From Chloroflexota bacterium (lineage in GTDB: Bacteria > Chloroflexota > Anaerolineae > Aggregatilineales > Phototrophicaceae): a DNA stretch of 64,000 nt. The stretch spans positions 1-64,000 of the forward strand of contig JACAES010000087.1 of assembly GCA_013388735.1 (NCBI GenBank), in the 5' to 3' direction. The stretch's first letter is position 1; each line of letters starts with the position of its first letter. The position numbers and the translations under genes are program-made. Under the pieces are notes generated by a model that was not told the DNA's origin, made no database searches, and worked only from the letters and a program-made list of their open reading frames with translations. Positions 6,020 through 17,242 of this stretch are shown piece after piece.

Positions 6020-6909
6020 ACAGCCTCCTTGCTTTCAATGATGGTTTCGGCCTCCTGCACAATCGTCCATACCGGGTCGCGGGCGTAAGCAGGCCGCACG
6101 CGCTCGATGTAGGCAGCGTCCTGTCCGGTCAGGGCGGCGTTACGTGCCGTAGACCATTCGGCTGGCCACGGCAGGTCGGACTCCTCAATCGTTGCGGCGA
6201 AGACGAATTCCAGTTTGTCCCGCGCAGCATCCTGCCACAACCCAACCCAGTGAAAAATCGGATTGCCATAACGACTAAGCGCCGCCGCCAGTTCATCCCA
6301 GGGGGCGCGCGCGCCGGAGCAGACCACACGTGGCAGCGTGCGTCCGCGTGTATCCGGCAGGGTCAGTACCCACCGGTGGCCTTCGTCCCACACCAGCCCG
6401 ACCACGCGCACCTCAAAACGCGGGTAACGCGGCTCTGGTCGCCCGGACAACAGATTTTTTAACCATCGCAGCCGGAACTGACGCCGCACGCGCCTGAGTT
6501 CATCCGGCGGCGTTTCGATGATGCGCGGCAGCGGGCGTTCGTCGGAAATGACGTCGAACAGCAGCCACTCCCAACGAACGCTGTCCGGCAGATGCCGCAG
6601 ATCGAAATAACCGTTCGCCCGGCTCTCGTTGGTTTTTTCCAGCAGACTGCCGCCCAGCGGCCAGCCGGCATACACCACGTTCAGCCGGTTCCAGCCCGCC
6701 AGATAGTACAGCCCAACCGGACGCTCGATGTGGGCGATCACACCGGTTTCTTCCCGCACTTCACGAGCGGCGGTTTCGGCCAGCAGTTCACCCGCGTCCA
6801 CCCGTCCGCCGGGTAGATTCCATACCCTTAGATCGCCGCGCTGCGACAGCAGCACCCGTCCCTCGTCGTCCAGCACCGCACAGGCCGTGCCTAACCGTAA
6901 AAAAGTCAT
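6016..6909 (-). CDS. Nudix hydrolase with a second, degenerate Nudix-like half
   Basis: A 297-residue protein; the start at 6909 has GTGAGG upstream. The N-terminal half (about 1-140) carries a complete Nudix box, G35-x5-E41-x7-REVREETG (49-56), so it should bind metal and cleave a nucleoside diphosphate-linked substrate. The C-terminal half (about 170-290) has strand patterns like a Nudix fold (RFEVRVVGLVWDEG, then HWVGLWQDAARDKLEFVFAA) but no catalytic glutamates, suggesting an inactive second domain for binding or dimerisation. It is coupled to adenine deaminase by an ATGA overlap. Cleaning up oxidised purine nucleotides would suit the context, but that is inference. Confidence 0.85.
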   Translation of the reverse strand: MTFLRLGTACAVLDDEGRVLLSQRGDLRVWNLPGGRVDAGELLAETAAREVREETGVIAHIERPVGLYYLAGWNRLNVVYAGWPLGGSLLEKTNESRANGYFDLRHLPDSVRWEWLLFDVISDERPLPRIIETPPDELRRVRRQFRLRWLKNLLSGRPEPRYPRFEVRVVGLVWDEGHRWVLTLPDTRGRTLPRVVCSGARAPWDELAAALSRYGNPIFHWVGLWQDAARDKLEFVFAATIEESDLPWPAEWSTARNAALTGQDAAYIERVRPAYARDPVWTIVQEAETIIESKEAV

Positions 6910-9869: not shown

Positions 9870-12800
9870 ATGACGAATCCACAATCAAAGCTCAGGCTTT
9901 TATGGCGTGGAGCCGCCGGCCAGGCGCTCATTGAATACGCGCTGATTTTGATCCTGGTGGCGATGGCACTGCTGGCCGCCCTGCTGGCGACCGGCCCGGC
10001 TATCGCCAACGTCTTTAGCAACACCGTCTGTAACCTGGTTGGCCTGGAGGACTGCGACCCGGACAGCCTGGTAGACCAGGGCGGCGGGCCGGAAAGTTTC
10101 TGGCAAACCGTCACGGCGGTCGCTCAAAACCCGCCGCTAGAAGAGCCAATCCCAACCAATAAACCATTCCCGACCAAACCTCTCCCTACCGATGGCCCAT
10201 CACCGACGCCAACGCCCAAAACACCGACGGCGACTTTTCCGCCCACCGCCACCGACAAACCGACCAATACGCCGGAAGATTTCGGCCACACCATCCCGTT
10301 TATAGACCCGATTGACCATCCCGAATGGTGGCGTGTGGACAGCAGCATCTTCCTGGGCGGCGAGGACTGGTGGGGCGAGTATTACCCCAACAAAGACCTG
10401 TCCGGCGCACCCGACGAGCAGATGTGGAACTACCAGCTCACCCCCGACAAAATCCACAAGTTCAACATCAACTTCGACTGGGGCGCGGGCGGGCCGATTG
10501 CCGGCTGGTCAACCGATAACTTCTCGGTTCGCTGGACGCGGACGATTTACGTCGCCGGAACAGAGGACATCTCCCTGACGGCCACAATCACGTCCATCGG
10601 CGGCGTGCGGTTCTGGGTGGACTCTGACCTCAAGCTCAACGACTGGTCGAACCGAACCCTCAACAGCACCCCATTGGCAACGACCTTCACGCTCACCCCC
10701 GGCACGCACCAGTTCAAACTGGAATATTACGTCGGTACGGGTGACGCCGCCGTTTACCTGGATGTCAACCATTATCAAGGCAATGTCCGTGACGATGCCA
10801 ATCTGGCTTCCGGCGATCCCAACTGCCAATGGACGCGCATCAACGGCAGCCAGCCCAATACGGTCGCCTGGGCCTGGAAGGAAAGCCCCGGCGGCACCGG
10901 CAGCGGCTTCCCGGCCAACATGCGCTGCAACCTGGAACTGCGCGGTTACGTGTTCCTGGATACCGCCAAGCAGTCCAACCCCAAAATGGCCTTCTGGGAT
11001 GTCTGGGACCTGGGCGGCGGCGGCTCGGTGACGCTGCAAATCGCGGAGTACGCGCCTTATGTTTATCTGCCGGATGGGACGGTTGACCCCAACAGCGGCC
11101 CGAACTGGGCCGGCGGCACGTCCATAACCCTGCGCAGCGGCGGCAGGAACTACGCCTGGACACGCAACTACGTGGACATCCCGACCAGCTACTACAACAA
11201 AAACATCGCCTACCGCTTCATTCTGCAAAGCGGCGGCGGTGGCGGCACGCGGCGCTGGTATGTGGACGACATCGCTATTCTCAATATGCCCACCCGCACC
11301 TTCAGCGTTTGCACCGGCAGCCTGGCGGCCTGCGGCAATTACTGGCATCTTGATAATGACGGCCAGAAAGCCGACTTCATCACGTCCGGGCGCTGGGCGC
11401 TGACGACCACCAACCATTTCGGCAGCACCGGCACCTCCTGGGATTCCAGCGGCGGTTCGTCCTACGTGCGTTTTGGGCCGGAGCAGCCGTCCGGCCAGGC
11501 CGACGACAACCGCGTTTATTCCATCGAATTTAACGGTCAGGTGGTTTTCCAGAATATTGACGAAAACGGCCTCGGCGGCATCCCGGACTGGGAAGGCAAT
11601 GACGGCATTCCGCAGCTTCGGTTTTACCATGCCTACAACATCGAAAGCGGCACGTCGCTGGAAATCCAGTACACCCGCGACCCGGTCGGCACGACGCCCG
11701 CCAACTGGCAAACCCTCCGGTCGCTGGTAAGCGGCGCGGCCACCGACCTGAGCATGAAGCAGGTTGAAATAGACCTGGGCGCTGTACCCAACTGGTGGCA
11801 GTCGCCGTTCCGGCTGCGCTTCGCCATGAAGGTGAATAACAGCCTAACCCCGGCCAAACCCGGCTGGTGGATTGACAGCATCGTGTTCGCGCGCAAGGGT
11901 GTCGCGCGGTACAGCGAGTATCCCTTCTGCGACGGCGCGGAAACCAGCATGGATAAATGGCTGACCGCCGGCGGCTGGGAAAACAGCGCCCAGCCCGGCG
12001 CATTCGGCAGTTCCCGCGCTTTCACCGACAGCCCCATCGGCAACTACCCGCACGGCCAGGAAACCTGGATCGAACTGCGCTACCCGATTGACTTTAACAA
12101 CGACACGCCAGAGAACCTGACGGTGTGGGGCGGCAACAAGGACTGCCTGAACAAAAACCCATCCGGCGCAGCCGTCCGCCCGATCCTCACCTTCTGGCAC
12201 TGGCGCGATCTGGCGGCCAACGAGTCCTTCTATGTGGATGTCATGCGGCCCGCCCATGCGGCCTCCGGCACGGCGAAGGTGGACTGGACGCCGATCTGGA
12301 GTTACGTCTACAACAGCACCAACCGGGTGCAGTTGGCCTGGGAACAGGTTGAGATCGAGATGGAACGGGGCATCCTGGATGCCATCTTCACGCGCACCGG
12401 CGTCACTACGGACTGGAATACACTCAAGACCAACGGCAACGCTTACGACGATGACTTCTACTTCCGAATCCGTCTGGATACCCGTTCCAACACCAGCGTT
12501 GCCGACGGCATCTATATAGACAACATAGACATCAAAAACTACTCCGAAACATCTCATCGTCTGTGGGACATCTCCGCCGGTGGCGACGGCGCGCGCTTCG
12601 TGGACAACATTGATACCCCGGCGGAATGGTGGACGCGCTGGCGCAACGGTGGCGACTGGGCCAGCACGGACAGCGCCAACTGGCAGATACCCAACCCGCC
12701 CATGCCCTACTGGTGGAAAGCCCATAACAGCTTCGCGGCCTTTCACGACAGCCCGCCGCCAACCGTGAGCGATAACTACGATACCTACTACCGTCATGCG

Positions 12801-14327
12801 ACTTACTCCGTCCTGGAGATGAACCGGATCATTGACCTGACCGGCGCGCTGGCAAGCGACCAGCCCACCCTGTACTTCTGGAATCACTACAGCGTCGGCT
12901 CCAGAGACAAAATCCGGGTTGAGGTCGCCGTCCAGGACTCGACGCGCACCCGCACCGGCTACAGCTACCTGTATGGCTGGGGGTCGGATAAGTCCTACGC
13001 CTCGCCGAACTACTCGTCCTGGCAGGATGTCTGGAGCAAGGGTGAGTACGCCCGCGTGGATACCTGGGTGCGCGAGCAGGTTGATCTGTCCGAATTCGCC
13101 GGCAAACGTATCCGCATCCGCTTCGTCATGAACGCGCTGGACAGCTCCAGCAACCTGCGGGATGGCTGGTACATTGACGACATCCGCATCGAACACAAGT
13201 CCACGCGCATCATGCCCTTCCCCTTCTTCGATCCGGCGGCCAATACCCAGAACTGGATCACCGAAGGCCTGTGGGGACTGGCGCCTGACCTGTGGAAAGG
13301 CACCGGCGGCGGCCCGGCCAACCTCGGCCCGGACACCTGGAAGGGTTACTTCCTGAAGTGTACCAATACGTCCAACGTGGTCGTGGACTGTTCGGTCAAT
13401 AAAAACCCATCCAACGCGAATAACTTCCTGAACCGGCTGACGCCGACAGTGGCGGCCATGAACGCCTACGTGGCGGCCAACCCGACCAAGGTGCTGCCGA
13501 TGTATGAGTCCAACGATGTGGTCTTCGACCTCGGCACGACCGGCAGGCCGCCGGGTGCGCCGCTGGGTACGGCGGGCAACGCCTGGGATAACCAGTACGT
13601 CGGGCGCTGGATCCGCCAGATCAGCGTGCTGTCGGGCGAATACCTCTTCGCCACCACCTCCGACGACGGCGTGCGGATGCGTTACGAACCGGCGGATACG
13701 CCGGACATCACCTCGCCGTATAACTGGAATATCCTCAATTACTGGAAGGAGACGTCCCGCACCGTCCAGTACAAGATCGTCACCCTGAACGAAGGCAGCT
13801 ATAACGTCGTGCTGGAATGGTTTGAAGCTACCGGCGACGCGGCCATCATCCTGCAGGCCGGCAACAACAATTTCTCCTTCAGCGACAGCCCACGCGCCAG
13901 CCTGCTCAGCGATGCCCTGCCGTCGGTGGCTTATGGCAACTCGTCGCTCATGCTCGACGGCGTGCTGAACCTCAACCGCCCAAGTGGTATGCCGTCTTCA
14001 TTGTGGCTGCCCAAGCTCAGCTACTACACCTACTGGCAGCTTGGCAGCAGCAACTCGGCCAATGCGGAGGTTTCGATTGACGGCGGCCTGAGCTGGACTC
14101 AGAATAATCTGAACCAGAACTGTCCGTCCGGGGCGACGTGCAGCCCGACCATCACCGGCTGGAGCGACCGCCTGCCGCCCAACGACTGGCAGTGGCGCGT
14201 GCATGATCTTCGCACCTATGGCAACCGCCCAGGCACGAGCAATTTTGTCGGGCTGCGTTTCCGGCTTAATACCGGCAGCAGCGTGCGCGACGGCTGGTGG
14301 ATTACGGAAATCAGCGTGAACAACTAA
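9870..14327 (+). CDS. Giant Flp-type pilin-like protein with PA14 and repeated jelly-roll modules
   Basis: A 1485-residue protein. Residues 1-17 form a basic leader ending in glycine, followed by QALIEYALILILVAMALLAA. This is a class III prepilin signal, with cleavage after G17, glutamate at +5 (E22) and a hydrophobic helix, as in Flp/Tad pilins. Residues about 85-135 are a Pro/Thr-rich linker. A PA14-like module spans about 190-310 (GGVRFWVDSDLKLNDW, then GTHQFKLEYYVGTGDAAVYL) and a second one about 1225-1375. Between and after them are about five beta-sandwich modules of about 200 residues, each ending in a variant of DGWWIDDI (near 462, 665, 878, 1098 and 1474). Known Flp pilins are about 50-80 residues. 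No Tad assembly genes lie in the window. Surface adhesion or carbohydrate binding is inferred. Confidence 0.9.
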   Translation: MTNPQSKLRLLWRGAAGQALIEYALILILVAMALLAALLATGPAIANVFSNTVCNLVGLEDCDPDSLVDQGGGPESFWQTVTAVAQNPPLEEPIPTNKPFPTKPLPTDGPSPTPTPKTPTATFPPTATDKPTNTPEDFGHTIPFIDPIDHPEWWRVDSSIFLGGEDWWGEYYPNKDLSGAPDEQMWNYQLTPDKIHKFNINFDWGAGGPIAGWSTDNFSVRWTRTIYVAGTEDISLTATITSIGGVRFWVDSDLKLNDWSNRTLNSTPLATTFTLTPGTHQFKLEYYVGTGDAAVYLDVNHYQGNVRDDANLASGDPNCQWTRINGSQPNTVAWAWKESPGGTGSGFPANMRCNLELRGYVFLDTAKQSNPKMAFWDVWDLGGGGSVTLQIAEYAPYVYLPDGTVDPNSGPNWAGGTSITLRSGGRNYAWTRNYVDIPTSYYNKNIAYRFILQSGGGGGTRRWYVDDIAILNMPTRTFSVCTGSLAACGNYWHLDNDGQKADFITSGRWALTTTNHFGSTGTSWDSSGGSSYVRFGPEQPSGQADDNRVYSIEFNGQVVFQNIDENGLGGIPDWEGNDGIPQLRFYHAYNIESGTSLEIQYTRDPVGTTPANWQTLRSLVSGAATDLSMKQVEIDLGAVPNWWQSPFRLRFAMKVNNSLTPAKPGWWIDSIVFARKGVARYSEYPFCDGAETSMDKWLTAGGWENSAQPGAFGSSRAFTDSPIGNYPHGQETWIELRYPIDFNNDTPENLTVWGGNKDCLNKNPSGAAVRPILTFWHWRDLAANESFYVDVMRPAHAASGTAKVDWTPIWSYVYNSTNRVQLAWEQVEIEMERGILDAIFTRTGVTTDWNTLKTNGNAYDDDFYFRIRLDTRSNTSVADGIYIDNIDIKNYSETSHRLWDISAGGDGARFVDNIDTPAEWWTRWRNGGDWASTDSANWQIPNPPMPYWWKAHNSFAAFHDSPPPTVSDNYDTYYRHATYSVLEMNRIIDLTGALASDQPTLYFWNHYSVGSRDKIRVEVAVQDSTRTRTGYSYLYGWGSDKSYASPNYSSWQDVWSKGEYARVDTWVREQVDLSEFAGKRIRIRFVMNALDSSSNLRDGWYIDDIRIEHKSTRIMPFPFFDPAANTQNWITEGLWGLAPDLWKGTGGGPANLGPDTWKGYFLKCTNTSNVVVDCSVNKNPSNANNFLNRLTPTVAAMNAYVAANPTKVLPMYESNDVVFDLGTTGRPPGAPLGTAGNAWDNQYVGRWIRQISVLSGEYLFATTSDDGVRMRYEPADTPDITSPYNWNILNYWKETSRTVQYKIVTLNEGSYNVVLEWFEATGDAAIILQAGNNNFSFSDSPRASLLSDALPSVAYGNSSLMLDGVLNLNRPSGMPSSLWLPKLSYYTYWQLGSSNSANAEVSIDGGLSWTQNNLNQNCPSGATCSPTITGWSDRLPPNDWQWRVHDLRTYGNRPGTSNFVGLRFRLNTGSSVRDGWWITEISVNN

Positions 14328-14474: not shown

Positions 14475-15491
14475 ATGGTCACGATTTCACAAAGACGCCA
14501 GGGACTTCTGTTCGTGCTGGTTGGCCCGGCAGGGGTGGGCAAGAACGAAATCATGAAACAGGTGCTGCCACGCATCGGCAACCTGCGCCAGCTTCCCACC
14601 GCCACCACCCGCCCCATCCGCGCCAGCGAGCTGCACGGACGCGAGCATCTATTTGTGTCCCGCCTGGAATTCCAGAAATTGATCGAAACCAACGCCCTCA
14701 TCGAGTGGCAGACCGTTCACGATGAACTGTACGGGATGCCGCGTGCGACCGTCGAACAGGCGATTGCCAACGAAGAAGACCTGATCGCCGATATTGAAGT
14801 CCTGGGGGCTACGTACCTGCGCTCGCTTTACCCGGATAATTCGGTGCTGATTTTTATCCAACCGCCTTCGCTTGATGAACTTAATAAACGAATGGCGAAA
14901 CGCGGCGAATCGCCGGAGCAAATCGCCAAACGGCTGCGCCGGGTGGACATGGAAATGCAGTACGCGCCGCTGTGCGATTATCTCATCACCAACGAAAAGC
15001 TGGATGAGGCCAGCGAGATTTTGTATGCCATCGTGCTGGCAGAGCGCAGTCACCGCGCGCTGCTGAACCTGCGCGTTGAACGTAATCTGCCCCGCCACAA
15101 GTTCGTCTATGCAACGATGGTGATCCCGATGTTTAATGGCGAAGTGCTGTGCCATGACCACGAGCCGCATTTTCCGACCAGCTACCCGACACACGGTGAA
15201 TTTCCGCACGAGGCCGCGCTGCGCGCGCTCAGGAACGAAATCGGCATCACACCATCCACCGATTATCTCTCCAAAACGCCGCTCGACTCGTTCATCCTGC
15301 CGGCGGCTTTGGATACCGTCGTCCAGGAACACTTCCAACAGGTGGTCTTCATCTACCTGTATGCTATGTCGGAACGTATCATGCCGCCGGAACACTGGAC
15401 ATGGACTCCCTGCCGGGAAGCGGCTCTGCCGCAGACAGTGCTGGACATCCTGGACGAGCAGAAAAGACTCATGCCGGAAGGTTTGTCATAA
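14475..15491 (+). CDS. Guanylate kinase-like protein fused to a degenerate Nudix-like domain
   Basis: A 338-residue protein in two parts. Residues about 10-190 look like guanylate kinase: P-loop GPAGVGK (17-23), TATTRPIRASELHGREHLF for GMP binding, LIEWQTVHDELYGMP, and the lid-like RLRRVDMEM. Residues about 208-330 resemble a Nudix fold. The box region (241-258, GEFPHEAALRALRNEIGI) keeps the arginine, one glutamate and the glycine but has alanine and asparagine where two catalytic glutamates should be. The kinase half should phosphorylate GMP or a similar nucleotide; the Nudix half is likely a binding or regulatory domain. Ordinary guanylate kinases are about 200 residues. ygfZ follows by 13 bases. 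Confidence 0.85.
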   Translation: MVTISQRRQGLLFVLVGPAGVGKNEIMKQVLPRIGNLRQLPTATTRPIRASELHGREHLFVSRLEFQKLIETNALIEWQTVHDELYGMPRATVEQAIANEEDLIADIEVLGATYLRSLYPDNSVLIFIQPPSLDELNKRMAKRGESPEQIAKRLRRVDMEMQYAPLCDYLITNEKLDEASEILYAIVLAERSHRALLNLRVERNLPRHKFVYATMVIPMFNGEVLCHDHEPHFPTSYPTHGEFPHEAALRALRNEIGITPSTDYLSKTPLDSFILPAALDTVVQEHFQQVVFIYLYAMSERIMPPEHWTWTPCREAALPQTVLDILDEQKRLMPEGLS

Positions 15492-15504: not shown

Positions 15505-16590
15505 ATGAGCCTGCCCGAACTCCACAGCAGACAGGGCGCGGCGCTGGCCGCCGATCATATTCCGCTGCATTACGGCGACCAGCGCGCGGAATATCGGGCC
15601 GCGCTGCACCATGTCGTACTGATGGATCGTTCGCATGAAGGCCGCCTGGAAGCGGCAGGCGGCGGTTGTTTCGACCTGATTCAGCGCATGTCCACCAACG
15701 ATGTGCTGCGCCTGTCCGAAGGCGAAGGCCGTCCAACCATTTTCACCAACCCCAACGGGCGTATTCTCGACCGGGCGATGGTCTACAACCGTGCCGGCGC
15801 GGCGCTGCTCGTCACCGAGGCCGGACGCGGCGCGGCGCTGCTTCAGTATCTCCAGCGCAACATCTTTTTCAACGACGATGTGCGGCTGAACGACCTGGCC
15901 GCCACCACGCATCTGTTCGCCCTGCACGGCCCCCAGGCCGACGCGGTGATGGAAAGACTCGTCCCCGGCGCTTCTGGGCTGGCCGGCTTCAACGGGCTGG
16001 CAGCGACCATCGCCGGCGCGCCGGTTTTTGTCGCCCGCCGCGCGCCTATATCCGGCGCGCACTGGATTTTGATCGTGCCGCTCGACGCGGCTGAAACTAT
16101 CTGGCTGGCGGCGCTGGAACGCGGTCAGGTTTACGGCCTCCGGCTGGCGGGGTCGTTAACCTACAACGCGCTGCGTATCCGCGCCGGTCGTCCGGCGGCG
16201 CGCAGCGAGCTGACCACCGATTATATCCCGCTGGAAGCCGGGCTGTGGGACGAAGTGAGTTTTAGCAAGGGCTGCTACACCGGGCAGGAGATCATCGCCC
16301 GTATGGAAAGCCGTAACCGACTGGCGAAGGTGCTGGTTATGCTGCATCTGGAGCAGTTTGTCCAGGCGCCGGCAGCACTCTACGAAGCCGGGAAAACCGC
16401 CGGGACGCTCACCAGCAGTGTGACCACGCCGGACGGCGAGCATCTCGGCCTGGGTTTTGTCCGGTTTGGGCTGGCCGCACCGGGCGGCCAGCTTTCGGCA
16501 GGCGACGCGGGCATCACCGCCACCATCACCGGACTGGCAGGGACGCAGCCAATGCTCCCCGACAGCCCGGATACCCCGCCCCAACCTTAA
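15505..16590 (+). CDS. ygfZ: YgfZ/GcvT-like folate-binding protein
   Basis: A 361-residue member of the aminomethyltransferase-like YgfZ/COG0354 family. The signature K255-G-C257-Y-T-G-Q-E is complete; in E. coli this cysteine-containing motif is needed for YgfZ to support folate-dependent assembly or repair of iron-sulfur proteins. The N-terminal text (HYGDQRAEYRAALHHVVLMDRS) is the usual GcvT-type opening. Start ATG 15505 has AGAGG upstream; the frame extends further up but that part overlaps the kinase gene and does not look like the family. The gene end overlaps the convergent FtsB-like gene by four bases. It is not the glycine-cleavage T protein, because no gcvH or gcvP is near. Confidence 0.9.
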   Translation: MSLPELHSRQGAALAADHIPLHYGDQRAEYRAALHHVVLMDRSHEGRLEAAGGGCFDLIQRMSTNDVLRLSEGEGRPTIFTNPNGRILDRAMVYNRAGAALLVTEAGRGAALLQYLQRNIFFNDDVRLNDLAATTHLFALHGPQADAVMERLVPGASGLAGFNGLAATIAGAPVFVARRAPISGAHWILIVPLDAAETIWLAALERGQVYGLRLAGSLTYNALRIRAGRPAARSELTTDYIPLEAGLWDEVSFSKGCYTGQEIIARMESRNRLAKVLVMLHLEQFVQAPAALYEAGKTAGTLTSSVTTPDGEHLGLGFVRFGLAAPGGQLSAGDAGITATITGLAGTQPMLPDSPDTPPQP

Positions 16591-17158: not shown

Positions 17159-17242
17159 TGCCGAAGGTGGGAGTCGAACCCACACTCCCTTTCGAGAACT
17201 ACGCCCTGAACGTAGCGCGTCTGCCAATTCCGCCACTTCGGC
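17159..17242 (-). tRNA. tRNA-Leu (anticodon CAG)
   Basis: The minus strand reads as a class II tRNA. It has a 7-bp acceptor stem GCCGAAG/CTTCGGC, D-arm sequence TGGCGGAATTGGCAGACGCG, anticodon stem CTACG/CGTAG with loop TTCAGGG (anticodon CAG, reading CUG), a long variable arm, and T-arm GTGGGTTCGACTCCCAC. The discriminator is A, as expected for leucine. The 3' CCA is not encoded; the genome continues CAG, so CCA must be added by tRNA nucleotidyltransferase. Confidence 0.97.

Follow-up and report, generated by a model that had tools for sequence, protein, structure and literature searches.

Guanylate kinase (Gmk), an essential enzyme that usually consists of one domain, sets the size of the GTP pool. 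In the window, that is, the whole stretch of 64,000 nucleotides analysed here, the open reading frame at 14475–15491 (+) and its translation reveal a fused guanylate kinase/pseudo-Nudix gene of 338 amino acids, in which a Gmk domain (residues 11–188; 14505–15038, +) runs in frame into a Nudix-like domain (approximately residues 209–332; 15099–15470, +) through a well conserved joint (residues 189–208, AERSHRALLNLRVERNLPRH; 15039–15098, +). Thirteen bases 3′ of gmk lies a gene for a GCV_T/YgfZ-like folate-binding protein (15505–16590, +), which adjoins both fused and unfused gmk genes in the genus. On the 5′ side, the gene at 9870–14327 (+) encodes a protein of 1485 amino acids whose N-terminus is hydrophobic and pilin-like (GQALIEYALILILVAMALLAALL) and which contains a PA14 domain as well as an InhA-like MAM domain; the gene is conserved in this place among close relatives. 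A tRNA gene is found at 17159–17242 (−).

The kinase domain scores above the curated cut-off of TIGR03263 (161.4 versus 160.45 bits) and matches Pfam Guanylate_kin at 1.4e-32. Its P-loop, GPAGVGKN (14523–14546, +), carries Asn in place of the Ser/Thr that is usually regarded as Mg-binding and, ending in GKN, departs from the pattern GXXXXGK[ST]. The same Asn occurs in 61 of the 62 fused proteins covering the site and in 24 of 29 unfused Gmk proteins of the order, and Asp is present in all 30 phylum-sample loci read (the best-scoring 30 matches from 251 phylum genomes searched). This P-loop change, to Asn in the order and to Asp in the phylum sample, is lineage-wide; as the Asn form is a lineage variant found in what is usually the sole Gmk of a genome, we do not take it as a loss of function. 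Residues R46, R49, E77 and Y86, which we take to be the counterparts of yeast R38, R41, E69 and Y78 that contact the phosphate and base of GMP, are retained in every fused protein covering them, and the GMP pocket contains H58 and M88 versus Tyr and Thr in Escherichia coli. An earlier note on this DNA had described the P-loop and the GMP-binding residues as intact, which holds for these four residues and fails for GKN, H58 and M88.

No second Guanylate_kin match was found in the genome of origin, which is 94.3% complete, so that a missed copy is possible; the specialised role that a second canonical gmk was expected to favour is thereby weakened. Judging from the kinase domain and from its being the sole copy found, the window protein is probably the housekeeping guanylate kinase (GMP + ATP → GDP + ADP). 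It resembles known Gmk proteins (TIGR03263/PF00625) over the whole kinase domain, and differs from typical bacterial ones in the GKN P-loop, the His and Met of the GMP pocket and the additional C-terminal domain.

A predicted Nudix fold with a degenerate box

Pfam NUDIX reaches 18.8 bits in the whole protein, the cut-off being 21.1, and exactly the cut-off (21.1 bits, 3.4e-4) on the isolated domain; at E ≤ 1 it matches 7 of 16 relatives and none of 13 proteins of a more distant set. Profile A1, a domain profile built from 16 relatives, matches mostly Nudix chains when compared with the PDB (best E 4.8e-4). The domain is predicted to consist of strands, the Nudix helix, further strands and a C-terminal helix, and its AlphaFold model (pLDDT 67.5, pTM 0.66) was built from a shallow alignment of five sequences. 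Every one of the 50 Foldseek matches listed for this model is a Nudix protein or a chain with a Nudix domain, with E. coli RppH as the best (3.2e-5), and VIA-align ranked human Ap4A hydrolase highest (Z 12.1, rmsd 2.5 Å, 118 residues). The C-terminal domain is thus predicted to have a Nudix fold, and the unrelated fold that the earlier note had envisaged as the other outcome of structure prediction did not appear. A chance match to Nudix was ruled out by the profile, the fold prediction and the relatives. The full-length fused protein was modelled poorly (pLDDT 42.4, five sequences), and the arrangement of its domains is not readable from that model. Pfam detected no winged-helix DNA-binding domain within the window protein. 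Note also that Pfam NUDIX is matched 13 times in the same genome at E ≤ 0.001, indicating that ordinary Nudix proteins are also present in the cell; one of the matches listed lies on the same contig at 6712–6897 (−), in a frame of 384 amino acids.

The degenerate Nudix box (residues 236–258; 15180–15248, +) has RALRNE for REUXEE and reads S236-x5-E242-x7-R250-A251-L252-R253-N254-E255-I256-G257-I258. Two of the REUXEE glutamates are replaced by Ala (A251) and Asn (N254), as had been observed before, the leading Gly is also lost (S236), and E242 and E255 remain, so that closer alignment did not turn the box into a canonical one. The active-hydrolase pattern GX5EX7REUXEEXGU is matched by none of the 63 fused proteins described below. 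The first REUXEE glutamate is kept in 0/63; exactly one of the three is present in 19 proteins, none in 44, and two or more in no protein. The best-conserved residues of the domain belong to its scaffold (FP, GExPHEAALR and W-x-W-x-P). Together, the sequence, the predicted fold and the loss of glutamates across the family support a C-terminal Nudix fold that would be devoid of the means of Nudix hydrolysis, and thereby the earlier proposal of a kinase carrying a dead nucleotide hydrolase.

Spread and retention of the fusion

A match to the window protein was found in 58 of 61 related genomes (the genome of origin included), with 29 fused and 29 kinase-only frames. When profile A1 was run over 154 genomes of the order, 58 were matched, 56 of them within a fused gmk (one with broken frames) and two in free ordinary Nudix proteins, and the full-length protein search alone gave eight further fused frames. 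The search for the Gmk–Nudix domain order that had been suggested thus yielded 63 fused proteins that could be used; they belong to four families, all within the Chloroflexota order of the window (39 from f1, 15 from f3, six from f8 and three from f4), and one fused copy that is spread over two broken frames (L141 in genome G482) was left out. A sequencing or frame artefact was ruled out, as an open fused frame recurs in many separate assemblies. Of 92 Gmk proteins compared within the order, 29 lack the domain. Within the genus, seven of the 17 members (own included) have the fused form, nine the unfused form and one has no match; the Nudix-like domain is therefore dispensable in these nine genus mates. 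As to a free Nudix gene beside gmk as the source of the domain, no unfused frame of at least 60 amino acids in the loci scanned matched the domain profile besides L145 and L147, which are two distant ordinary Nudix genes.

The Nudix-like domain is kept by purifying selection, though loosely. This follows from its dN/dS, which in 17 pairs of relatives lies between 0.08 and 0.50 versus 0.02–0.38 for the kinase, and from a neutral simulation (5000 runs per setting) that left the segment open 251 times at 0.3 changes per site, 52 times at 0.6 and 19 times at 0.9. In no pair did dN reach or exceed dS in more than 8 of 1000 bootstraps, and in five pairs (families f3, f4 and f8) the dN/dS of the domain is as low as 0.08–0.12; the domain outpaces the kinase in 16 of the 17 pairs. 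On a kinase-domain tree of 99 rows, obtained by a quick method and leaving out L110, which has no N-terminus, the fused/unfused label requires six changes, of which the starred branches force one. In three unfused genus mates (L015, L018 and L019) the GCV_T/YgfZ-like gene still directly follows gmk, which looks like loss of the domain in place.

Mirror-image proteins and the number of fusions

Over 400 genomes of the phylum, profile A1 matched 94 at E ≤ 0.01, and nine loci besides the window were read. Seven of these have no Gmk part, and two (L148 and L151) have a Gmk-like N-terminal stretch followed by a canonical Nudix box; their N-terminal half resembles the Gmk of the window's order and is devoid of the P-loop, the GMP-binding domain and the lid. 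L151 is a second copy of one of the five mirror-image proteins L157–L161 (L159), which were found in genomes G082, G387, G380, G423 and G393. Their distribution is patchy within one family, amounting to five among its 29 genomes and among the 47 genomes of its class, which is another class than that of the window. A profile made of the five matches 63 of the 400 phylum genomes, along its whole length only in these five. The Nudix box is complete in all five mirror proteins and the P-loop is present in none; Pfam NUDIX matches all five (best 6.7e-15) and Guanylate_kin none at E ≤ 1. Each of the five genomes contains one separate normal Gmk. In the starts of the flanking frames, read by eye, the mirror genes were not seen next to ygfZ.

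In profile–profile comparison, the N-terminal half of the mirror proteins scores 63.8 against the kinase of the fused family (200 column-shuffled controls, at most 23.6; reversed control, 15.5), 28.1 against Gmk of other classes and 8.2 against a Nudix profile, indicating that the Gmk remnant is nearest to the kinase of the window's order. The joint (AERSRR...N.R...RH.F.YTAT) is found at the matching place and has nearly the same length as in the fused proteins. The Gmk half and the joint thus favour a single fusion event, which the Nudix tree does not: in this tree, where 11 of the 63 fused domains are included (each from family f1), the Nudix domains of the mirror proteins cluster with canonical free-standing Nudix proteins, and the fused pseudo-domains sit by themselves at the end of a long branch. 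Forcing fused and mirror Nudix domains together costs 9.9 log units and is neither rejected (p-AU 0.069) nor supported.

Common descent of the fused and mirror forms from one bifunctional Gmk–Nudix protein is attractive. We tentatively suggest, with more reserve than confidence, that such a two-headed ancestor decayed oppositely in two lineages and that control over the live head is why each dead head was retained. The window's order would then have kept a live kinase with a dead Nudix head, and the other class, in five genomes, a canonical Nudix domain with a kinase lacking P-loop, GMP-binding domain and lid. Among the genomes searched, none was seen to encode a protein in which both heads are intact. 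RelA/SpoT and GGDEF-EAL proteins are likewise two-headed enzymes, where decay of either head has turned it into a regulator of the head that is still alive; they may serve as an analogy for the fused/mirror pair, the domains themselves being unrelated. The mirror proteins would permit a direct comparison of both outcomes.

Possible roles of the pseudo-Nudix domain

An essential enzyme of some environmental Chloroflexota thus keeps what appears to be a catalytically dead second domain, and in a few distant relatives the situation is seemingly reversed. In the literature searched, whose coverage mostly excludes subscription journals, no report of a Gmk–Nudix fusion was found, and the accessible part of a survey of metabolic gene fusions contains no guanylate kinase match (PMC4921024). 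Dead Nudix domains in other proteins offer, by analogy, a precedent for regulation. The NUDT9-H domain of vertebrate TRPM2 is likewise a Nudix domain fused to another protein with a lost box (RILRQE in human TRPM2, close to RALRNE); it is inactive and binds ADP-ribose (PMC6461439). TRPM2 differs in being an ion channel and not a kinase, its binding of ADP-ribose is not known to extend to the fused Gmk proteins, and its invertebrate relatives retain the box, which is kept in 0/63 members of the fused Gmk family. MutY/MUTYH is likewise an enzyme with a grafted, non-catalytic Nudix-like domain at its C-terminus; this domain confers specificity and is dispensable for basal catalysis (PMC9266487). 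MutY differs in being a DNA glycosylase that recognises 8-oxoG in DNA. As for NrtR-type regulators, PMC4666351 describes BtAraR as having a dead Nudix domain that has lost its catalytic residues and senses arabinose; the use of Nudix as a small-molecule sensor is similar to the role proposed below, and the difference is that NrtR and BtAraR have it linked to a DNA-binding winged helix and not to an enzyme.

We consider that there is an even chance of the pseudo-Nudix domain being a regulatory or ligand-binding partner of a working Gmk. It would bind a small ligand resembling a nucleotide and leave it unhydrolysed, or pack on the kinase, and ligand binding or packing would set the activity or the stability of the kinase. 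This reading draws on the sole Gmk found, the 63 fused frames with a dead box, the purifying selection and the match to the Nudix fold, on the precedents of TRPM2, BtAraR and MutY, and on the mirror proteins, which likewise keep a dead half; the faster evolution of the domain in 16/17 pairs and its absence from 29/92 Gmk proteins argue against it. In a lineage where the sole Gmk found carries a pseudo-Nudix domain under selection, the turning of a dead enzyme into a control domain can be tested on a natural example, and the genus mates that lack the domain can serve as controls.

A purely structural role, where the domain stabilises or dimerises Gmk or aids its folding without any ligand, appears unlikely, if worth keeping in mind: the scaffold is the best-conserved part, the metal-binding glutamates are lost throughout and divergence is fast, as it would predict, but Nudix folds usually serve to bind ligands, and the genus mates do without the domain. 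That the domain is instead what is left of an old two-function enzyme, decaying towards loss, is improbable. The six fused/unfused changes on the Gmk tree (only one being forced by starred branches), the unfused genus mates with the same gene directly after gmk and a dN/dS above that of the kinase are what such decay would leave, but dN/dS is clearly below 1 in 17/17 pairs, with 0.08–0.12 in five pairs from three families, and 63 frames are still open in four families. It is very improbable that the domain still hydrolyses some substrate via an unusual active site, for which one could invoke the remaining E255 (of the box) and E242 and the existence of Nudix enzymes of atypical mechanism, as suggested by the title of a YmfB entry among the VIA-align matches. 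The first glutamate is lost in 63/63 and 44/63 have no REUXEE glutamate at all, and the NUDT9 variants RILGEE and REFGKK are inactive (PMC6461439).

Returning to the regulatory partner domain, the sensing of a nucleotide to tune kinase activity, for which the earlier note gave ppGpp or an oxidised nucleotide as examples, would be compatible with these data. Rel/SpoT was found in 29 of the 30 genomes tested, both with and without the fused domain, a distribution that does not bear on Gmk itself, and ppGpp is therefore not favoured over other ligands.
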